Shown one piece after another: positions 7,801 to 60,373 of a DNA stretch of 64,000 nt. Positions within the stretch are counted from its first letter, which is position 1, and each line of letters opens with the position of its first letter. Location: positions 186,001-250,000 of the forward strand of contig NZ_JADPVI010000001.1 of assembly GCF_015679325.1 (NCBI RefSeq). The letters run 5' to 3'. The notes beneath the pieces are model-generated. The model saw only the letters and a list, made by a program, of their open reading frames with translations. It made no database searches and was not told the DNA's origin. The stretch comes from Kaistella gelatinilytica. GTDB taxonomy: Bacteria > Bacteroidota > Bacteroidia > Flavobacteriales > Weeksellaceae. The position numbers were made by a program, and so were the translations under genes.

Positions 7801-8784
7801 TTTCATCAGATTAAATTTCTCCTCATTAATATACTGATAATCGTCATAACGACTAATGATATTCCCATTCACCGCTTCGTCCATTTCCTGGATTCTTTTT
7901 CCGGGGCCTAAATCAAAATTGATAAAGTAGTAGGCGAAATCATCATATATATTGATGAAATTATTTGATTTTTCAGTTCTGGTATCTATTCGGCGGTTTC
8001 CGTTTCCATTTGAATTTCCATCAGATTTATAAATATTGTAACCGTTTGGACCTTGAGCGTAAAAAAGTGCATAATCGTCATCGTTCCAAACACCATCATT
8101 TTCACCAATTACTTGAATCGCATCTTCCTGTAAAGCAGAAAATCGTGTATCCAGATTATGTTCAGGCAACATTAATCCCCCATTTCCATAAATTCTGAAA
8201 TTTTTCGGATTGATATTGGAAGGATTAATGCCATTGTCACGCAAAAATTTCGACGTGATCTTGAAAACCCCGGATTTATCGACTTTAATTTTATAGAAAT
8301 TTCCTGATTTTAAAGGATTATCGTTAGATCCAATTTTACCAGTTATTGATAATGCCGGATTCGCGTTTCCACCGCTTACAATACTAAAAGAAACCAATCG
8401 GAAAAGATTGTCTTTTTCTAATTTTAAGGTAGAGACTCTAATATTTGTCGTTTTTTCCTGAGTGTAAGGATCGGTATAATAGGAAACTGATGATTTTTCC
8501 TGCATCGGAATGCTGGACGTACTTACTTCAAAAATTTCTTTTGAGGTTATTTTTTCCCAAACAAAATTCCCTATTTTTTGATTACCACCCGAAAATTTTT
8601 CACTGGAACGAAAAAAGATAGAACCTTCTTCGTAAGCAAAACCTTCATTGGTAAAATATGGGACGGTTGTTTTATAACTTCCAAAATCAATGACTTTGCT
8701 TCCATTCCATTGAATATTAATGGTTTGTGCAGCAGCAAAAGAGAAAAACAAACTGGTTAAGACAAGAGTTAAGATGCGTTTCAT
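4879..8784 (-). CDS. porU: Type IX secretion sortase PorU (C25 gingipain-like)
   Basis: Cell-surface cysteine peptidase that removes the C-terminal signal of T9SS cargo and, in Porphyromonas gingivalis, attaches the cargo to A-LPS. The 1301-residue protein has a signal peptide (about 1-19), a long N-terminal beta-rich region and a C25 peptidase domain. His790 in FGHGGING and Cys828 in STITCEF are the predicted catalytic pair. Immunoglobulin-like C-terminal modules follow, including LNWPNPFTN and a GKGTYIFKIFAKS strand near the end. The length is normal for flavobacterial PorU. It is first gene of the porU-porV operon and divergent from gldJ. Confidence 0.95.
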   Translation of the reverse strand: MKRILTLVLTSLFFSFAAAQTINIQWNGSKVIDFGSYKTTVPYFTNEGFAYEEGSIFFRSSEKFSGGNQKIGNFVWEKITSKEIFEVSTSSIPMQEKSSVSYYTDPYTQEKTTNIRVSTLKLEKDNLFRLVSFSIVSGGNANPALSITGKIGSNDNPLKSGNFYKIKVDKSGVFKITSKFLRDNGINPSNINPKNFRIYGNGGLMLPEHNLDTRFSALQEDAIQVIGENDGVWNDDDYALFYAQGPNGYNIYKSDGNSNGNGNRRIDTRTEKSNNFINIYDDFAYYFINFDLGPGKRIQEMDEAVNGNIISRYDDYQYINEEKFNLMKIGRIWTGDSFSGSKAVSFTTKSPIQSTDVIKYRTRVIGYQSSGNSITRNINGLNSEISAIPSDEIKEFVIPKVFAGTITNLQGNTLTFNYLPNTSSNPNGKFYFDYAEVQYKEDLKFNNSQMNFRRYDINEGSGTTYTFNLADASSVEQIWQVSDITNVTKKVNKSGSTSNFAFGYNANNNIFVNEFVAFKSSDAFAPSFVGKIENQDLAGLQNIDYLMITVPQMMGQAQRLANFYQNKYNVAVVDINKIYNEFSSGSKDITAVRDFATKLNTPGGKLKYLFILGDTSYDYKGKNNPGSDIIPSYESEESGNYADSFVTDDYYGMTSLQSPSTYALSDTLPDLPVGRLPAANISEAKLLIDKTLAYTNALPGQSTPFGEWRMKLDFVVDDDADNLVPFHNTMNISLVNNFEAGTLRKEYNVRKLYLDAFTAQTSAGGQRYPQVNQAISNDVGNSLYLFYFGHGGINGWAQERVLTIDQIQNFNNYNNVYTRFPLVSTITCEFTLWDDPATFSAGEQVIKSKQGGAAIMITSSRAIGVGYGEEFTQIFTKHIFELVNDDFTNLGDAFLKAKIEKKTNANHLKVNYLGDPAMKLSRPKRLLNIDQIESPVSGQLRALDFVTVKGHINKADGTIDTSFNGRVAINIFDKRLNKKTLNNDNEPKMTPVLNFSEENGPIVKSSGLAVNGVFAVEFYVPKDINYEIGDGRILAYADNKVFDVFNNQIQKVGGINPDGINDTTPPKVKLYMNNTNFADGGITDQNPLLLACVNDDKGINSTGSGIGHDITTILDGKIVDTVVLNDFYFSGDGNGCTDASLKDYQKGNVSYPFRNLAPGAHQLSFKVWDINNNSTTETLNFVVKDETNQNLVVNKLLNWPNPFTNKTYVQFEHNCDDILDVNVQIYTITGKLVKTISTSVTAEPFFQGFRTPRTAIEWDGNDDFGDAVGKGTYIFKIFAKSQNQDKCKGTATAVEKMVLLK

Positions 8785-51549: not shown

Positions 51550-54500
51550 TTAATCCTGAAGATCTCCTTCAATGGAAACGGATTCTGCTTCGATAACTGC
51601 AGGTTCGTTGTGAAGCCATTTTTTCTTTTCAGACATATAATAAATCAATGGAATAACAATCAAAGTCAAAAGCGTAGAAACGATCGCTCCAAATACCAAT
51701 GAGATTGCCAATCCCTGGAAAATCGGGTCGAATAAAATCACGATTGCGCCAATTACCACTGCTCCGGTTGTTAATAAAATCGGTGTCGTTCTCACTGCTC
51801 CTGCTTCAATGATTGCGCGTTTTATTGGCGCTCCTTCTTTCAAACGAATTTCAATAAAGTCAATCAAAAGAATCGAATTTCTCACCATAATTCCTGCTAA
51901 AGCAATCATTCCGATAAAGGAAGTTGCCGTAAAGAAAGCGCCTAATAACCAGTGTCCGAGTACAATCCCAACCAGCGAAAGTGGAATAGGGATCATCATC
52001 ATAATTGGGGTTTTAAAGTTTTGGAACCAACCTACGATCAACATATAAATAATGAGAATTACCACTAAAAATGCAACACCCAAATCCCGGAAAACTTCCA
52101 AAGTAATTTGCCATTCTCCATCCCATTTCACAGTATAATCAGATTCGTCTTTTGGCGCATTCATGTACAATTCGTTCAAGGAATATCCCGCTGGAAGTTT
52201 GATGTTTTTCAATTTTTCATCCATTCCGAGAATTGCATACGCCGGACTTTCTAATCCTCCTGCCATATCTGCAAGAATATAAACCACGCGTTTTTGGTCT
52301 TTTCTGTAAATTGATTTTTCCAAAGTTTCGCGCTGAACTTTTACAATATCACTTACCGGAACCATTCCTGCCTGACCTTTCACTTTTAAGTCCGTTATGT
52401 CGGAAATGCTGGTTTTGTCGCCATCATTTAATTTCATTACAATATCAATCGCGTCATTTGATTTAGGGTCAAATAAATTTCCGACAGAATGTTCGCTAAT
52501 TAGATAAGTAAGATTTCCAACAATTTGTTGAGGTGCGACACCGTTCAACATTGCTTTTTCTTTATCGGCTACGATTTTAAATTCAGTTTGTGGCGATTCT
52601 ACCATCCAATCTACATCAACAACATCATCGGTATTGATGAGGATTTTCTGAACTTCATCTGCAATTCGAACTTGCTCGTCATAATCTGGTCCGTAAACTT
52701 CGGCAACAATGGTTGATAAAACTGGCGGTCCAGGTGGAACTTCTACGATTTTTACATTCGCTCCATATTTTTTCGCAATCTTGTGAATCTCTGGACGAAT
52801 CACTTTTGCCACATCATGACTTTGTAAATCGCGATCTTCTTTATGTAAAAGATTCACCTGAATATCTGCAGTATTGCTACTTCCGCGCATATCGTAATGA
52901 CGAACCAATCCATTAAACGTAATTGGCGACGCCGACCCAATATAAGATTGATAATTCACCACTTCTGGAACGGTTTTCAAATATTGAGCAATGTCTTGCG
53001 TAACTGCAGCAGTTCTTTCTAAAGTCGTCCCTTCTGGTAAATCGATGACTACTTGAACTTCATTTTTATTATCAAAAGGAAGCATTTTCACCGCCACCCA
53101 TTTTGCCGCAAAAGCAAACATGGAAATCATCAACAAAACACCCGTAATTCCGAGCATGGTCCATCTTTTCTTTTTGTTATCAAGCAAAGGTTGCTCAATC
53201 TTTTTGTATATTTTATAGATGAATCCGGTTTCTAAACCTTGCTCTTCTTTATGTTCCTCACTGTCTTTTACTTTTAATAAATGGAAACCTAAATAAGGCG
53301 TAATCGTTAAAGCCACAAAAAGGGAAAGTAACATCGCAATCGAAGCGCCAATCGGCATCGGCGACATATAAGGTCCCATCATTCCAGATACAAATGCCAT
53401 GGGTAAAATCGCTGCAATCACTGTAAATGTTGCTAAAATCGTTGGATTTCCAACTTCATTAATGGCGAAAATTGCGGCTTGCTTAAACGGTAATTTCTTC
53501 ATGTGGAAATGCCGGTGCATATTTTCCGCGATAATAATACTGTCATCAACGACGATTCCCACAACGAAAACTAGGGCGAAAAGCGTAATCCTGTTCAGCG
53601 TATAACCCAACATATAATACGCGAAAAGCGTTAATGCAAAGGTTAAGGGAACTGAGAAGAACACGACTAAACCGCCTCTCCAACCCATTGCGAGCATCAC
53701 CAAAAGCGTCACTGCGACAATCGCAATTCCCAAGTGGCTCATTAATTCAGATACTTTGTGAGAAGCCGTTTCCCCGTAATTTCGGGTTACTTCAACATGG
53801 ACATCATCGGGAATTAAAGTTTTCTTTAAAGTTTCCACCTGATCCAAAATCTCTGCAGAAATATGCATCGCATCGGCACCTTTTACTTTAGAAATAGAAA
53901 GGGTTACCGCAGGATATTCTGATAAAAAACTCTTGCCTTTTTCAGTCGCGTTTCCGTAACCGAAATTCACATAATTCTTTGTGGAGGAAGGTCCATCTTC
54001 AATTTTTGCAACTTGTTTTAGATAAACCGGCATATTTTGAGAAGTTCCAATGACCAGGTTTCCAACATCTTCAGCAGAATTTAAAAACTCACCAGTTGTT
54101 ACCAAATATTCCTGATCGTTGCTCGCAAAACTTCCAGATTGTGAACTGCCATTATTGGCCTGAATCATTTGCATAATTCCCAACGCATCAACATTGGATT
54201 CTGCCATTTTATCTTTGTCAACTACCACTTGCAACTGTCGGCTTCTTCCGCCAATCACGTTCGTTAGGGAAACATCTTTAATTTTTTTGACTTCTGAAGC
54301 AAGTTCTTCGGTCATTTGTCTTAACTGAAAATCGCTGTATTTTTCACTCCAAAGCGTCAATCCCAGCATCGGAACATCATCGATGGAACGGGTTTTAATT
54401 AAGGGTTCGTAAACTCCTTTTGGAAAGATGTTTTTGTTTTTCATCATCTCATCGTAGAGTTTCACGTAAGAACGTTCGGTATCTTCACCCACGTAAAACT

Positions 54501-54795
54501 GCACGATAATCATGGCTTTGCCGTTCATCGCCATACTGTGAACGTGCTCTACACCTTTGATGTTGGAGATTATTTTTTCCAAAGGTTTCACCACGCGATT
54601 TTCTACTTCCGTAGGATTTGCGCCGGGATAACCAACCATTACGTCGGCCATTGGTACAATAATCTGTGGTTCCTCTTCTCTCGGTATTAATGTCGAACTG
54701 TACATCCCAATCGCCATCAACGCGACCATCAACAGAATTGATAGTTTTGAATTGATGAAGACTTCGGCAATACGTCCTGCTATTCCTTGTTGCAT
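51550..54795 (-). CDS. RND efflux permease (AcrB/HAE1-like)
   Basis: Inner-membrane proton-driven pump of a tripartite system. The 1081-residue protein has 12 helices and two large periplasmic loops: start IAEVFINSKLSILLMVALMAIG, GYPGANPTEVENRVVKPLEK, TM4 FVVGIVVDDSIIIAENMHRHF with adjacent Asp residues, PLSLVGIVLGHWLLGAFFTATSFIGMIALAGIMVRNSILLIDF, and C-terminal EAGAVRTTPILLTT. The double Asp in TM4 fits the drug/hydrophobe (HAE) type rather than heavy-metal CusA types. It is downstream of the adaptor and TolC genes. Its substrate cannot be inferred. Confidence 0.92.
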   Translation of the reverse strand: MQQGIAGRIAEVFINSKLSILLMVALMAIGMYSSTLIPREEEPQIIVPMADVMVGYPGANPTEVENRVVKPLEKIISNIKGVEHVHSMAMNGKAMIIVQFYVGEDTERSYVKLYDEMMKNKNIFPKGVYEPLIKTRSIDDVPMLGLTLWSEKYSDFQLRQMTEELASEVKKIKDVSLTNVIGGRSRQLQVVVDKDKMAESNVDALGIMQMIQANNGSSQSGSFASNDQEYLVTTGEFLNSAEDVGNLVIGTSQNMPVYLKQVAKIEDGPSSTKNYVNFGYGNATEKGKSFLSEYPAVTLSISKVKGADAMHISAEILDQVETLKKTLIPDDVHVEVTRNYGETASHKVSELMSHLGIAIVAVTLLVMLAMGWRGGLVVFFSVPLTFALTLFAYYMLGYTLNRITLFALVFVVGIVVDDSIIIAENMHRHFHMKKLPFKQAAIFAINEVGNPTILATFTVIAAILPMAFVSGMMGPYMSPMPIGASIAMLLSLFVALTITPYLGFHLLKVKDSEEHKEEQGLETGFIYKIYKKIEQPLLDNKKKRWTMLGITGVLLMISMFAFAAKWVAVKMLPFDNKNEVQVVIDLPEGTTLERTAAVTQDIAQYLKTVPEVVNYQSYIGSASPITFNGLVRHYDMRGSSNTADIQVNLLHKEDRDLQSHDVAKVIRPEIHKIAKKYGANVKIVEVPPGPPVLSTIVAEVYGPDYDEQVRIADEVQKILINTDDVVDVDWMVESPQTEFKIVADKEKAMLNGVAPQQIVGNLTYLISEHSVGNLFDPKSNDAIDIVMKLNDGDKTSISDITDLKVKGQAGMVPVSDIVKVQRETLEKSIYRKDQKRVVYILADMAGGLESPAYAILGMDEKLKNIKLPAGYSLNELYMNAPKDESDYTVKWDGEWQITLEVFRDLGVAFLVVILIIYMLIVGWFQNFKTPIMMMIPIPLSLVGIVLGHWLLGAFFTATSFIGMIALAGIMVRNSILLIDFIEIRLKEGAPIKRAIIEAGAVRTTPILLTTGAVVIGAIVILFDPIFQGLAISLVFGAIVSTLLTLIVIPLIYYMSEKKKWLHNEPAVIEAESVSIEGDLQD

Positions 54796-54866: not shown

Positions 54867-54895
54867 TGTTACATTATTTTATTGTTACATTATTT
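54867..54895. repeat. 13-bp direct repeat with 16-bp period
   Basis: TGTTACATTATTT occurs at 54867-54879 and 54883-54895, overlapping the stop of the adaptor gene. Further TGTAACA-like half-sites lie nearby at about 54835. Confidence 0.75.
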
Positions 54896-55969
54896 AGTTA
54901 CTTTTGCTCCGTTATAAAGTTTTCCTTGCGCCGAAACGATGTAAGGTTCTTTTGCTGTAAGTCCAGATAAAACTTCGACTTGATCGCCAAAATCTTTTCC
55001 TACTTTCACCCAACGAAGCACTGCCGTATTATTTGAACTGATGGTATAAACTCCCGTCAACTGGCCTTTTTCGACCAAAGCAGATTTCGGAATCATCACG
55101 CCTTCCTGAAAATCCTGATTCACTTTCCCAGAATTTTTAAAAGGAAACTGGATGTTCACAAACATCCCCGGCAATAAATTTTGACTTCCCGAAACATTAA
55201 CTTTCACCATATATTGTCCACCAGTATTTGTCGATGATTTGCTTATTTCTGCTACGGTTCCGCCAACTTCTTGGTTTGTTGATTTCAAAGTAATTTTCAC
55301 CGGCATTCCTTGAGTGATTTGGGTAATGTTTTGCTCCGAAACCAAAACTTGCGCTTGCAAAGCAGATGGAGATTCGATGGTTAACAGAGGCATTCCCGGA
55401 CTTGCCATATCTCCTTGTTCTGCAAATTTAGCCGTGATTACTCCGGAAATTGGTGCGGTAATATTCGTGTAGCGATATTGAGAATTCACTTCACTTTTCA
55501 TGGCTTGTGCGGCTTGTAAACCGGCTTGAGCCATTTCGTAGCGCGCTCTCATATCATCAAGTTCTTTTTGAGAAGCACTTTGATTTTTATATAAATTCGA
55601 GAAACGCTCGTAATCTTTTTTAGCTATATGATAACTTGCCTGTGCTTGAGAAATTTGCGCATTGGCTTGTCCACCTTTTGCCTGAATATCTGTGGAATTG
55701 ATGCTTACCAATAATTGTCCCGCACTCACGTTTTGTCCAACTTCGGCTTTCATTCCCGTGATGTAACCCATCATTCTGGTACTTACATTCACGGTGTTTT
55801 TCGCGACTAATTTTCCACTTGCGCTTGCATAAGCCCCTTCAGAATTATTTCCGGACTGATTTACGGTTACTTGAATTGGCGTCTGCTTTAGTGCTGCATC
55901 CTTCCCGTCTGCCGAGCAACTGCTCATGGTTAATCCTAAAAGTAGGACGGAGTAAACTAATATTTTCAT
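54890..55969 (-). CDS. RND periplasmic adaptor (membrane-fusion) lipoprotein
   Basis: Links the permease to TolC. The 359-residue protein has a lipoprotein signal with Cys18 (LTMSSCSAD), a lipoyl/beta-barrel segment (GYITGMKAEVGQNVSAGQLLVSI), a coiled-coil hairpin (about 105-165, NAQISQAQASYHIAKKDY to ARYEMAQAGLQAAQAM), a second lipoyl half (NITAPISGVITAKFAEQGDMASPGMPLLTIE) and a C-terminal beta-barrel/MP domain. It follows TolC by 105 nt, a gap filled by a 7-bp repeat tract, and precedes the permease by 94 nt. Confidence 0.93.
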   Translation of the reverse strand: MKILVYSVLLLGLTMSSCSADGKDAALKQTPIQVTVNQSGNNSEGAYASASGKLVAKNTVNVSTRMMGYITGMKAEVGQNVSAGQLLVSINSTDIQAKGGQANAQISQAQASYHIAKKDYERFSNLYKNQSASQKELDDMRARYEMAQAGLQAAQAMKSEVNSQYRYTNITAPISGVITAKFAEQGDMASPGMPLLTIESPSALQAQVLVSEQNITQITQGMPVKITLKSTNQEVGGTVAEISKSSTNTGGQYMVKVNVSGSQNLLPGMFVNIQFPFKNSGKVNQDFQEGVMIPKSALVEKGQLTGVYTISSNNTAVLRWVKVGKDFGDQVEVLSGLTAKEPYIVSAQGKLYNGAKVTK

Positions 55970-56074: not shown

Positions 56075-57370
56075 TTATTTTAAAAATTTAAAGTATTCCA
56101 GCGCCGAATTATATTCGAAAATCGCCTGTTGATATTCCAGTTCTTTTTGGGACATTTGAGTTTCTGCGGAAAGCAAATCAGAAGATTTATCTAAACCTTT
56201 ATCGTATCTGTTTTTTCGGATTCTGTAGGCTTCTGCACTTTGATCCCAGGATAATTTGGTTAAAGAAACTTTGTTGTCCGCATCTAAAACCTGACGATAC
56301 GATTTGTTGAGTTCTAACTGATTTTGTTTTTGATATTGCTGAATTTCAGTTTGTGCTTTTGAGAGATCTGCTTTGTAAACTTCTTTTTCGCTTTTGGCTT
56401 TGTAACCATCGAAGACATTCCAGGATAATTGCAATCCGAGTAAATAACCATTGCCATTGAATTTATAAACTTTATTGTCATTTAATTCAAAACTTCCAAA
56501 GGCATTTAATTTTGGTAAAAACTTCGCATCGGCTGATTTCATCATAAAATCGTAGGCTTCCAAAGATTTTTCATACGCCTGCAAATCTTTTCTGTTTTCA
56601 TTGAGTTTTGGATTTTGCTCCAAAATATTTTCCTGATAAGAAAACTCATCCATCGGCTTGAAAACTTTATTTTCCGAATCTTCATTCAATAAAAAATAAA
56701 CATAATCCGAAGCATTTCTCACATTAGATTTCGCATATTGAATCTGACTTTCAATTTCAGAAACTCTAACATTCATATACAACACTTCAGATTTCTGAAT
56801 CATTCCGTTTTTGTAATAATTATCGATGACTTTTTTGTTGGCCAATGTTGTGTTTTTTGCTTCTTCTAAAACTTTCACCACTTTATACGCCATTTGCAAT
56901 TGGAGATAGGCTTTATTCAAATCAAACTGAAGATATTCTTTGGTACGTTCTGCTTTTATTTTCAAAACGTCCACTTTTACTTCTCCCGCTTTTTTCTGAT
57001 AAACCGCATCTTTATTAAAAATGGGTTGCTGCACTTCTAATTTCGTAGCGAAATTGAAAATATTATCGGGATTATTTAATTGAGTTGGATCGAAATCCAT
57101 CATCGTAATTCTGGATTGGTTGAGTTTTGTTCCGAAAGCCATCAACGGACTGTTAGTCGCAGTTCCTGTGTAAGAAGCGGTTACGTTGGGCAAATACATT
57201 GCGCGAGTTTGCAACAAACCGGCTTGTGCAGAATTTACTTCATCATTCGCCAATTTCAAGGAAAGGTTTTGACCTTCAATTCTGGATTCTAAATCTTTTT
57301 TAGAAATTTGAATGGTATCCTGCGCGAAAATTTGTGTTGATATAAATAGTAGGAATAATACTTTCTTCAT
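56075..57370 (-). CDS. TolC-family outer-membrane efflux protein
   Basis: Outer-membrane channel and periplasmic tunnel of the tripartite pump. The 431-residue protein has a signal peptide (KKVLFLLFISTQIFA), then two helical repeats each of about 190 residues with long amphipathic helices, e.g. EVNSAQAGLLQTRAMYLPNVTASY and LGLQLSWNVFDGYKAKSEKEVYKADLSKAQTEI, ending AIFEYNSALEYFKFLK. It is first gene of the pump operon, with a promoter box and a putative Crp/Fnr-type site upstream. Confidence 0.92.
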   Translation of the reverse strand: MKKVLFLLFISTQIFAQDTIQISKKDLESRIEGQNLSLKLANDEVNSAQAGLLQTRAMYLPNVTASYTGTATNSPLMAFGTKLNQSRITMMDFDPTQLNNPDNIFNFATKLEVQQPIFNKDAVYQKKAGEVKVDVLKIKAERTKEYLQFDLNKAYLQLQMAYKVVKVLEEAKNTTLANKKVIDNYYKNGMIQKSEVLYMNVRVSEIESQIQYAKSNVRNASDYVYFLLNEDSENKVFKPMDEFSYQENILEQNPKLNENRKDLQAYEKSLEAYDFMMKSADAKFLPKLNAFGSFELNDNKVYKFNGNGYLLGLQLSWNVFDGYKAKSEKEVYKADLSKAQTEIQQYQKQNQLELNKSYRQVLDADNKVSLTKLSWDQSAEAYRIRKNRYDKGLDKSSDLLSAETQMSQKELEYQQAIFEYNSALEYFKFLK

Positions 57371-57388: not shown

Positions 57389-57396
57389 CAAAAGTA
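57389..57396 (-). promoter_or_regulatory. -7 box of the TolC-adaptor-RND operon
   Basis: Minus-strand TACTTTTG, 18 nt before the ATG; matches TAnnTTTG. Predicted transcript start near 57382. Confidence 0.6.
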
Positions 57397-57418
57397 TTGC
57401 AGTAAAAAATCCTGCACA

Positions 57419-57432
57419 GTGACAAATGTTAC
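57419..57432. promoter_or_regulatory. Putative Crp/Fnr-type operator of the pump operon
   Basis: GTGAC-AAAT-GTTAC on the plus strand is a near-perfect 14-bp dyad (GTgACA-AA-TGTtAC). Its centre at 57425.5 is 29.5 bp from the distal edge of the -7 box, about -43 from the predicted start. Confidence 0.5.
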
Positions 57433-57470
57433 AGAGTCTATTAACATTGAAAGTTAGCAGTGTTTTTTTC

Positions 57471-57567
57471 GCACGGATTTCACAGATTTAAACGGATGAA
57501 TGTATTAGTTTGAAATTATTAATTGATGTCAAAAAAAAATCTGTGAAAATCCGTGTGATCTGTGCGC
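57471..57567. repeat. Imperfect palindromic intergenic element
   Basis: Left arm 57471-57490 (GCACGGATTTCACAGATTTA) and right arm about 57537-57567 are inverted, with a 9-nt insertion in the right arm. The element is built from CACGGATTT/CACAGATTT units flanked by A and T runs. It resembles dispersed repeats seen in other flavobacterial genomes. Confidence 0.8.
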
Positions 57568-57597
57568 TGAAAATAATTAAGATGTGGTGCAAAATGA

Positions 57598-57623
57598 AAA
57601 ACCCCGAAATTAATCGAGGTTTT
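57598..57623 (-). terminator. Weak terminator after the rhodanese gene
   Basis: Ten-position stem AAAACCCCGA/TCGAGGTTTT with one C-A mismatch, 6-nt loop, and Ts on the minus strand. Confidence 0.65.
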
Positions 57624-57646
57624 ATCTGCAGAATATAGTGATGTAT

Positions 57647-57958
57647 TTAAATTTTACCATTCAAACTTCCCCAACCGCCACCGTTGTGAACGTCGGTATA
57701 GCCATTATTCAAAAGAATTGTTTTCGCAGAACCACTTCTCATTCCAGAAGCGCAACATGTAATAATCGTTTTGTTTTTGTCCTTTAATTTGCCAAGATTA
57801 TTTTGAAGTTGGTCCACCGGAATATTGATGGAACCTTTAATATGTCCACTTGAATATTCTCCTTTGCTGCGAACATCAAGGATAATTGCGCCTTTTTTTA
57901 CAAGGTCTGCGTAATCTGTTTTTGTGAAGCCGAATAATTGATTAATAGTATCTAACAT
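57647..57958 (-). CDS. Single-domain rhodanese (sulfurtransferase)
   Basis: Transfers sulfane sulfur between thiols or cyanide. The 103-residue protein has ILDVRSKGEYSSGHIKGSINIPVDQL and the active-site loop TCCASGMRSGSA, where the second Cys is the expected persulfide carrier, followed by NGYTDVHNGGGWGSL. There is no signal peptide. It lies 70 nt after the Crp/Fnr-type regulator gene with its own promoter and putative operator. The E. coli homologue YgaP joins such a domain to a DUF2892 membrane part, which here is encoded separately at 50955-51161. Confidence 0.92.
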   Translation of the reverse strand: MLDTINQLFGFTKTDYADLVKKGAIILDVRSKGEYSSGHIKGSINIPVDQLQNNLGKLKDKNKTIITCCASGMRSGSAKTILLNNGYTDVHNGGGWGSLNGKI

Positions 57959-57988
57959 AATTTTGAGTATTTGATTGATTTAATACTG

Positions 57989-57996
57989 CAAATTTA
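57989..57996 (-). promoter_or_regulatory. -7 box of the rhodanese gene
   Basis: Minus-strand TAAATTTG, 30 nt before the ATG; matches TAnnTTTG. Predicted transcript start near 57982. Confidence 0.6.
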
Positions 57997-58018
57997 GGTC
58001 AGCCAAATTGGGACTACA

Positions 58019-58032
58019 GTAATCTATATCAC
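58019..58032. promoter_or_regulatory. Putative Crp/Fnr-type operator of the rhodanese gene
   Basis: GTAAT-CTAT-ATCAC on the plus strand is a 14-bp dyad with the same layout as the site at 57419-57432. Its centre at 58025.5 is again 29.5 bp from the distal edge of the -7 box. It overlaps the stop codon of the regulator gene. Confidence 0.5.
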
Positions 58033-58637
58033 AGAAGTTCAATTTTATTTCGGGAAAGAATTAAAAGATGATCTTTTTCCATTTGTTTGAGAACTCTGCT
58101 CGTTGCTTCCCGTGTAATTCCAAGTTCATCCGCCAATTGCTGATGTGTTACTGAAATTTCTTTAGAATTATACAGTTGAGTTTTCTGTTTGATGAGGTGT
58201 AAAAGTCTCGTATCAATTTTTTGGAAAGCCACCGAATTCACAACATCCAGTAATTCCTCAAATCGTTTTTGATAGAGATCAAAAATAAATTCCGTCCAGT
58301 CTGGATATTTCTTCACCCATTCTTTGGCTTTATCTGCCGGGATCAGCATGATATCTGCATCTTCTTCTACAATGGCTTTGATTTTCGATGTTTCATTTTT
58401 CATTCCGGCCAGAATTGAAACGATGCAGCTTTCACCCGGCGTTAAATAGTAGAGTAGGATTTCGCGACCATCTTCTTCAGTCCGGATAACTTTAATACTT
58501 CCGGAAATAACCACGGGAATATGTTTGATATAAGAATCCATGTTCACGATAGTTTCACCTGCTTTAAAATGTTTCAGGTTACCGGAATCTTCAATTTCTT
58601 TCACTAAATCGGACTGGAAAATATCTTTTAAAATCAT
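58029..58637 (-). CDS. Crp/Fnr-family transcriptional regulator
   Basis: A 202-residue regulator with an N-terminal cyclic-nucleotide-binding-like beta-roll (about 20-115: FKAGETIVNMDSYIKHIPVVISGSIKV, GESCIVSILAG), a dimer helix (about 118-140) and a winged helix-turn-helix (about 155-200: THQQLADELGITREATSRVLKQMEKDHLLIL). There is no cysteine cluster for an Fe-S centre as in Fnr; one Cys lies in GESCIVS. The recognition helix REATSRVLK is of the Crp/Fnr type. The effector is unknown. It probably controls the adjacent rhodanese and pump genes. Confidence 0.9.
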   Translation of the reverse strand: MILKDIFQSDLVKEIEDSGNLKHFKAGETIVNMDSYIKHIPVVISGSIKVIRTEEDGREILLYYLTPGESCIVSILAGMKNETSKIKAIVEEDADIMLIPADKAKEWVKKYPDWTEFIFDLYQKRFEELLDVVNSVAFQKIDTRLLHLIKQKTQLYNSKEISVTHQQLADELGITREATSRVLKQMEKDHLLILSRNKIELL

Positions 58638-58867: not shown

Positions 58868-60373
58868 ATGTCAAATCTTTGGAAAACAAAATCCCTCAGT
58901 TCACTTCTTGCAAGCGCAGAAGATTCGGAAAAGGGACTAAAAAGAACTCTTAGTGCAGCTTCACTGGTCGCCCTGGGAATTGGAGCTATTATTGGCGCAG
59001 GATTATTTTCTTTAACCGGAATTGCTGCTGCAGATAATGCAGGTCCAGCCGTGGTTTACTCCTTTATATTAGCTGCTTTAGGATGTGCATTTGCCGGACT
59101 TTGTTATGCTGAATTTGCCTCCATGATCCCAGTTGCAGGGAGTGCCTATACTTATTCTTATGCAACAATGGGTGAATTTATGGCCTGGATCATCGGCTGG
59201 GATTTAGTTCTTGAATACGCACTTGGAGCTGCCACGGTTGCCGCTTCATGGTCACAATATGTCGCAAAATTTATGCTGAGTTTCGGCATTACTTTACCCG
59301 TTTCCCTTTTGCATGGTCCATGGGACGTTATCGTAGATGCGAACGGCGTTTCTTCGACACCCGGAATTTTAAATCTACCTGCGATCCTGATCATTTGTTT
59401 GCTGTCTTTACTATTAATTAAAGGAACGAAGGAATCAGCGTTGATCAACAATATATTAGTAATTCTAAAAGTAACCGTAGTTTTAGTATTCATCGCACTT
59501 GGTTGGGGTTTCATCAATCCAGCGAATCATACTCCTTTTATTCCTATCAATCAAGGTGAAGTCTTGATGGATCAGGGGAAAATGGGTTTCTTTGAATTTT
59601 TCCAGAGTGATTATTTCGGACATTATGGTTGGAGCGGAATTTTACGTGGAGCCGGAGTTGTTTTCTTCGCATTCATCGGTTTTGACGCCGTAAGTACTGC
59701 AGCACAGGAAGCAAAAAATCCTCAAAAAGGAATGCCGATCGGAATTATCGGATCATTGATCATCTGTACCATATTATATGTGCTATTTTCTTACGTTTTG
59801 ACAGGTTTAGAAAATTATGTCAACTTCAAAGGAGATGCAAGTCCGGTGACAACAGCTTTTGCGAAAACTGGATATACCTTTTTAAATTCAGCCTTGACCA
59901 TTGCAATTATTGCAGGTTACACTTCCGTAATGTTGGTGATGTTGATGGGTCAGAGTCGTGTATTTTACAGCATGAGTGTTGATGGTTTGTTGCCTAAATT
60001 CTTCAGTGATCTTCACAAAACAAGTCAAACTCCCTGGAAAACCAACGTAGCGTTCATGATCTTCGTGAGTTTATTTGCAGGATTTGTACCCGTTTCAGAT
60101 TTAGGACACATGGTAAGTATCGGAACTTTATTTGCCTTCTCTCTCGTTTGTATCGGCGTGATCGTAATGAGAAAAACAAATCCAGATGCAGTTCGTGGTT
60201 TCCGCGTTCCATTTGTACCGGTTTTACCAATTTTAGGAGTGATCATTTGTGTGGCGTTAATGGCCGGTTTACCGAAAGAAAGTTGGGAACGACTTGCGAT
60301 TTGGTTGGCGCTCGGTTTAGTCGTTTACTTTGTTTACAGTAAGAAACATTCTAAGCTTAATAATGATAATTAA
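58868..60373 (+). CDS. APC-superfamily amino-acid permease (cationic amino-acid type)
   Basis: A 501-residue integral membrane protein with 12-14 helices. The N-terminal LVALGIGAIIGAGLFSLTG is the APC substrate-binding helix. Other blocks are CAFAGLCYAEFASMIPVAGSAYTYSY, GVVFFAFIGFDAVSTAAQEAKNPQKGMPIGI and AGYTSVMLVMLMGQSRVFYSMSVDGLLP. This pattern is that of YfnA/CAT-type permeases. It probably imports amino acids by proton symport; the exact substrate is unknown. The ATG at 58868 is chosen because the in-frame TTG at 58844 lies within the promoter. A strong terminator follows. Confidence 0.9.
   Translation: MSNLWKTKSLSSLLASAEDSEKGLKRTLSAASLVALGIGAIIGAGLFSLTGIAAADNAGPAVVYSFILAALGCAFAGLCYAEFASMIPVAGSAYTYSYATMGEFMAWIIGWDLVLEYALGAATVAASWSQYVAKFMLSFGITLPVSLLHGPWDVIVDANGVSSTPGILNLPAILIICLLSLLLIKGTKESALINNILVILKVTVVLVFIALGWGFINPANHTPFIPINQGEVLMDQGKMGFFEFFQSDYFGHYGWSGILRGAGVVFFAFIGFDAVSTAAQEAKNPQKGMPIGIIGSLIICTILYVLFSYVLTGLENYVNFKGDASPVTTAFAKTGYTFLNSALTIAIIAGYTSVMLVMLMGQSRVFYSMSVDGLLPKFFSDLHKTSQTPWKTNVAFMIFVSLFAGFVPVSDLGHMVSIGTLFAFSLVCIGVIVMRKTNPDAVRGFRVPFVPVLPILGVIICVALMAGLPKESWERLAIWLALGLVVYFVYSKKHSKLNNDN

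Follow-up and report, generated by a model that had tools for sequence, protein, structure and literature searches.

Do the two operator-like dyads that flank a small rhodanese gene in Kaistella gelatinilytica belong to one regulator, and what would such a regulator control? We examined this question in a window of 64,000 nucleotides (contig NZ_JADPVI010000001.1, positions 186,001 to 250,000), to which all positions refer unless another locus is named. The minus strand carries a Crp/Fnr-family gene, then the rhodanese gene, and then the TolC, adaptor, and RND permease genes (Table 1). Direct reading and a pattern search both identified the dyads, which are GTGACAAATGTTAC at 57419–57432 for TolC (minus strand, GTAACATTTGTCAC-22 nt-TACTTTTG) and GTAATCTATATCAC at 58019–58032 for the rhodanese (minus strand, GTGATATAGATTAC-22 nt-TAAATTTG). 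Both dyads and both TAnnTTTG boxes lie where the original prediction had placed them, with exactly 22 bp between the members of each pair, and its value of 29.5 bp from dyad center to distal box edge is correct for both promoters. The TGA stop codon of the regulator gene (58029–58031) falls within the rhodanese operator half-site (58029–58032, GTGA or GTAA).

At class II promoters, the site of Escherichia coli CRP is centered at −41.5, the standard position for class II activation. The TAnnTTTG box of Flavobacterium psychrophilum occupies −12 to −5 (PMC9723704). Because the spacer is 22 bp long, the dyad then spans −48 to −35, with its center at −41.5. The earlier proposal of a center near the class II activator position thus stands, with its value of −43 corrected to −41.5. 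With start positions taken from the F. psychrophilum box, both window sites would have the class II Crp/Fnr promoter geometry.

Table 1. Features of the two window promoters and of the adjoining genes (window coordinates)
Feature	Position	Strand	Evidence
Operator dyad, TolC-adaptor-RND operon, GTAACATTTGTCAC	57419..57432	-	Present in 26/26 TolC promoters examined
22-bp spacer between dyad and -7 box, TolC promoter	57397..57418	-	Same length in 26/26; mean pairwise identity 0.44 vs 0.82 for half-sites
TAnnTTTG -7 box TACTTTTG, TolC promoter	57389..57396	-	Read directly; conserved
Operator dyad, rhodanese gene, GTGATATAGATTAC	58019..58032	-	Present in 29/29 rhodanese promoters examined
22-bp spacer, rhodanese promoter	57997..58018	-	Same length in 29/29; mean pairwise identity 0.41 vs 0.83 for half-sites
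TAnnTTTG -7 box TAAATTTG, rhodanese promoter	57989..57996	-	Read directly; conserved
TolC-family outer membrane efflux gene	56075..57370	-	Pfam OEP above cut-off
RND periplasmic adaptor gene	54890..55969	-	NCBIfam RND_mfp above cut-off
RND permease gene	51550..54795	-	Pfam ACR_tran above cut-off
Single-domain rhodanese gene, 103 aa	57647..57958	-	Pfam Rhodanese above cut-off
Crp/Fnr-family regulator gene, 202 aa	58029..58637	-	Pfam cNMP_binding and HTH_Crp_2 above cut-off

Two further features were observed around these genes. An inverted repeat element with two pairs of 12-nt arms lies upstream of the TolC dyad (57469–57558); by eye, similar CACGGATT/CACAGATT stretches occur in several relatives and are absent from others. 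The amino-acid permease adjoining the regulator (58868–60370) is 43–61% identical in some relatives and 89–100% in others, a split that may reflect different genes or exchange.

The dyad was rejected as a predictor by itself, being enriched neither in the window nor in the genome. A loose form occurs 3 times in the window against 2.21 expected (at least 3 in 36 of 100 shuffles), and the tighter GTRAY-N4-RTYAC gives 47 sites genome-wide compared with 51 in a reversed control. Requiring a leading T gave 24 strand hits in the genome and 17 in the control. We scanned all 47 genomic dyads in both orientations (94), with offset statistics drawn from 46 of them (92 orientations). TAnnTTTG stands at +22 in 5 of the 94 orientations, where ~0.08 would be expected. 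For 46 dyads in both orientations, it lies elsewhere between offsets 0 and 52 in 4 cases; the 47th dyad, scanned separately, lacks the box at +22. At the measured background, 0.076 composites at +22 are expected in the 92 orientations (P about 2e-8), and P is still 5e-5 when the TAnnTTTG background is raised five-fold. Since the two window sites prompted the search, independent evidence comes from the three remaining composites, for which about 0.07 would be expected.

We repeated the search with TGTRAYNNNNRTYAC in G162, whose regulator is 81% identical, and in G124, which belongs to another genus. G162 gave 21 strand hits against 29 for the reversed control, and G124 gave 44 against 48. Among the distinct dyads examined with their flanks, the box stands at +22 in 4 of 16 in G162 (before TauE, a CxxCH lipoprotein, rhodanese, and TolC) and in 3 of 39 in G124 (before a dps-like gene, TolC, and rhodanese); the lipoprotein and dps labels are our readings of the translations. 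Other offsets from 0 to 52 account for 2 boxes in each genome, and G162 has a further rhodanese with the box at +23. The lipoprotein-like gene of G162 (L265, C1:1055557) lies about 1.6 kb from its regulator gene. The G124 composite before the dps-like gene looks like a non-sulfur member and counts against a sulfide regulon.

The five composites of the K. gelatinilytica genome head the two window units, a peroxiredoxin gene beside cydAB, an SQR-like gene, and a TauE-PDO operon. In the peroxiredoxin unit (dyad at L092 4734), cydA and cydB follow. The SQR-like flavoprotein gene comes after this cluster, with its dyad at 8341 and its start at 8404 of L092; the protein matches solved sulfide:quinone reductases with E 3.5e-38 and scores 49 bits in the NCBIfam SQR model, which has a cut-off of 525. 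The operon in L093 begins with TauE/SafE and a small gene that by eye encodes a lipoprotein-like product. A metallo-beta-lactamase/rhodanese fusion and a rhodanese come next, then a gene read by eye as cupin-like, a methyltransferase-like gene, a further rhodanese, and thioredoxin. Its fusion protein, of the persulfide-dioxygenase/rhodanese type, matches 3tp9 (E 2.4e-63) and 3r2u (E 1.8e-58), and its thiopurine-methyltransferase-like protein carries a YgaP-type membrane segment. The same composite heading three further units suggests that the purpose of the set is sulfide and persulfide handling. Judged from their predicted products, the units form a tool set for sulfide oxidation and persulfide clearance, with the RND pump as the odd member. 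A near-miss, with a dyad, 22 bp, and a GAAATTTG box, precedes a Thioredoxin_9 gene (L094 5375–5435; C2:374374), which is possibly a further member of the regulon, so that the edge of the set is blurred.

The gene at 58029–58637 is of the Crp/Fnr family and near both sites, as had been claimed: PF00027 and PF13545 both score above their curated cut-offs. Like E. coli CRP, the regulator has an R-E...R pattern in its recognition helix (TREATSR; RE...SR), and the sites have the TGTGA-N6-TCACA form and the −41.5 center. Unlike CRP, it is associated with the Bacteroidota TAnnTTTG promoter and with different genes, and the RS motif of the cAMP site is absent, as CRP GDFIGELGLFEEGQERSAW aligns with GESCIVSILAGMKNETSKIKA in a single-sequence alignment. 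The NCBIfam CRP model gives 56.7 bits against a cut-off of 266, too low for a cAMP-dependent CRP. FNR also belongs to the Crp/Fnr superfamily and activates in class II fashion, with the half-site TTGAT. The protein here differs from FNR in that the [4Fe-4S] cysteine cluster is absent, Cys71 being its only cysteine, and in that the half-sites are GTGA/GTAA-like.

We sorted the 36 genomes of the genus by their regulator: 23 have type A (64–100% identity), 4 type C (about 36%; G026 was placed here by score only), 4 type B (51–52%), and 5 none. Cys71 aligns in 59/59 rows of type A to D regulators, where some loci appear in duplicate, and 47/48 rows of types A and B have no other cysteine. The stretch around it aligns with the beginning of the cAMP-binding loop of CRP. 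A structure prediction from 9 close sequences was unusable (mean pLDDT 46), so Cys71 is placed by sequence only. GTGA makes up 33 of 80 half-sites from type A genomes and 0 of 8 from type C/D (P 0.02, the rows not being independent), a suggestive sign that the helix Glu may covary with the G of the half-site.

Judged from gene content, sulfide or sulfane sulfur is probably the signal. The sites could also be those of the regulator while the signal is oxygen limitation, cyanide, nitric oxide, electrophiles, or a heme-bound gas. The presence of cydAB and peroxiredoxin within the set is in keeping with such a signal, cytochrome bd and rhodanese also serve in cyanide defense, and Cys71 lies near what is presumably the position of the heme-ligand cysteine of CooA. 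We nevertheless consider this unlikely, as the SQR-like protein, the persulfide-dioxygenase/rhodanese, TauE/SafE, and the several rhodaneses point to sulfide, and so do the 51–53% identical (type B) relatives of the regulator, which are close to TauE and PDO genes. A TauE-like match is near in 9/9 fetched type B loci and a PDO match in 7/9. None of these 9 loci has the strict composite; by eye, a variant dyad, GTAACCAAAGTAAC, precedes TauE in three of them (L206–L208). Among six other cysteine-bearing loci outside the genus (L215–L220), the composite is found only in L219, together with TauE and PDO. In L218 we found an SQR_III-like gene at 228 bits (cut-off 525) and a TsuA-like one at 47 bits (cut-off 400); L216 has a thioredoxin match, and the sulfur-gene queries that we used matched nothing in L215, L217, and L220. 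Regulator relatives in other lineages thus adjoin sulfur genes, mostly without the strict composite.

The regulator at 58029–58637 in all likelihood binds the dyads, given how closely the site tracks it. Where the genome has a regulator of type A or C, 19 of 22 TauE loci carry the composite; where it has neither, 1 of 8 does (Fisher P 4e-4). Of the 27 genomes that have regulator A or C, 22 also have a TolC ortholog, compared with 0 of the 9 that do not (P 2e-5). These comparisons draw on genomes of a single genus, which are not independent of one another, and the pump is usually linked to the regulator. In G168, G085, and G172, TolC lies apart from the regulator and the site is still kept. The correlation fails at four of the 30 TauE loci: G075, G146, and G155 have the regulator and no site, and G137 has the site with no type A or C regulator detected. 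The 30 loci come from the 36 genomes searched, the remaining six lacking a full close TauE. The composite is thus found at 20 of 30 TauE-PDO promoters in the genus; the ten others have none further upstream in the 1500 bases searched at each, and wider stretches at G155, G075, and G146 gave none either.

Binding of the dyads by a different Crp/Fnr protein of this genome appears improbable. Four such proteins are present, all with the Glu of the helix, and each lacks both the Arg that precedes it and Cys71; they are only 16–19% identical to the regulator over the alignment (22–27% in local matches). The G137 site would suit another binder, as would the TolC sites of G143, G063, and G105, which adjoin a ~36% relative of the regulator (as is also the case in G162). 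However, the relative beside TolC in G143, G063, and G105 belongs to the same cysteine-bearing group, and the site tracks types A and C.

The sites are very probably functional operators, as their conservation indicates. The original prediction had staked its claim on the dyads persisting at orthologous rhodanese and TolC loci, and the composite is present in 55/55 promoters: dyad, 22 bp, and TAnnTTTG are kept at 29/29 rhodanese promoters, at 22/22 TolC promoters in the genus, and at 4/4 in other genera. The named relatives in the comparison are seven Kaistella and one Frigoriflavimonas. Mean pairwise identity across the rhodanese, TolC, and TauE promoters is 0.82–0.88 in the half-sites versus 0.41–0.46 in the spacers. 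Close orthologs of the smaller units, with our own genome included, give a similar picture: the composite is present at 3/3 peroxiredoxin genes, with two different dyad sequences, and the dyad stands at 22 bp at 4/4 SQR-like genes, where the box is exact in 2 and has one mismatch in 2.

The position of a site is by itself no proof of activation, and the bound protein could be a repressor or the dyads functionless relics. We hold this to be slightly less probable still than a different binder. A center at −41.5 is the standard place for class II activation, and relics would hardly be conserved in all 55 rhodanese and TolC promoters examined while the spacer drifts. In addition, the 29 rhodanese promoters come from 30 regulator loci, and the remaining locus (L018, of G126; also L190) has no rhodanese match within 1.5 kb on either side of the regulator; its left half-site persists as the stop codon, and its right half-site reads ATAAG instead of RTYAC. 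Conservation of the rhodanese half-site merely as the stop codon of the regulator, with TGA or TAA forming bases 2–4 of the half-site in 22 of 30 loci, can be dismissed, since in seven displaced loci the dyad lies 160–193 nt after the stop and is kept at the rhodanese promoter, and since the TolC, TauE, SQR-like, and Prx sites would be left unexplained.

In the displaced loci, namely L010 (2116–2269), L006, L011, L013, L014, L016, and L019, extra DNA separates the regulator stop from the rhodanese dyad, and the operator has stayed with the rhodanese. The insert of L010, whose 28-nt inverted arms are 86% complementary, resembles a small mobile repeat. The TauE-like gene of G126 has one TAA within the match. 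In G155 (L059 1498–2226; L195 7359 onward), the first 93 TolC residues run straight into the end of the RND permease behind an intact promoter composite, and no adaptor match was seen at this fused locus. K. palustris DSM 21579 has the same arrangement.

The original prediction that the regulator activates both the rhodanese gene and the TolC operon draws support from conservation, helix fit, and site tracking, from which we infer binding, activation, and transcript starts. A regulator dimer would occupy the CRP-type dyad, centered at −41.5 in a sigma-A promoter that has a TAnnTTTG box. Because a CRP-type site is centered at this position, the bound dimer should activate in class II fashion, and we strongly predict activation by the bound regulator. 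The five units of the same design would respond together to sulfide and sulfane sulfur (persulfide, polysulfide). The SQR-like protein would oxidize sulfide, joined by persulfide dioxygenase and rhodaneses, the TauE/SafE exporter, thioredoxin, peroxiredoxin with cytochrome bd, and the RND pump. A sulfane-sulfur species would act on Cys71; persulfide sensing is proposed here because of the position and conservation of this residue and the gene content. On this evidence, we give even odds that Cys71 is the sensor. More tentatively, the single cysteine, placed where the former cAMP loop begins, may have taken over from the nucleotide as the switch of a Crp/Fnr-fold persulfide sensor, with the activated dimer driving a class II regulon of fixed geometry and the RND pump exporting reactive sulfur species or their adducts. 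The pump might conceivably export a product or by-product of sulfide stress. Overall, we assign a probability of about 0.75 to an activator of the Crp/Fnr family that counts an RND pump among its targets and that probably responds to sulfide or persulfide.

Known systems have similar roles and other proteins. The Staphylococcus aureus cst operon encodes TauE, a persulfide dioxygenase/rhodanese fusion, and SQR, a gene set similar to that found here. FisR controls sulfide oxidation or reactive-sulfur detoxification. So do SqrR and BigR (PMC9774590), which are ArsR-type; all three resemble the regulator here in role and belong to other protein families. Unlike the predicted Crp/Fnr activator with its one cysteine, CstR belongs to an unrelated repressor family, and the persulfide regulators CstR and SqrR use several cysteines (PMC9774590). 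The single cysteine is thus a point against persulfide sensing. MexR and MarR are sulfane-sulfur-sensing regulators of multidrug efflux, with an RND pump under MexR (PMC11211675). The system here would likewise couple sulfane sulfur to an efflux pump, but through a positively acting Crp/Fnr protein rather than a MarR-family repressor. In titles and abstract openings of open-license literature, no Crp/Fnr-type regulator of sulfide or sulfane sulfur was found among the matches listed, some queries possibly being too narrow. The sulfide and sulfane-sulfur regulators met in this material belong to other families, namely ArsR-type SqrR and BigR, MarR-type MexR and MarR, and others by title.

The finding is larger than first noted, comprising a predicted Crp/Fnr-type class II sulfide/persulfide regulon that includes an RND pump. 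A dyad, 22 bp, and TAnnTTTG are suggested as a sequence rule for class II promoters in Bacteroidota, and with an operator at so exact a spacing, experiments can directly address the signal, the sensor residue, and what the pump does. If persulfide sensing by this regulator holds true, the RND pump would be an arm of sulfide detoxification in flavobacteria.
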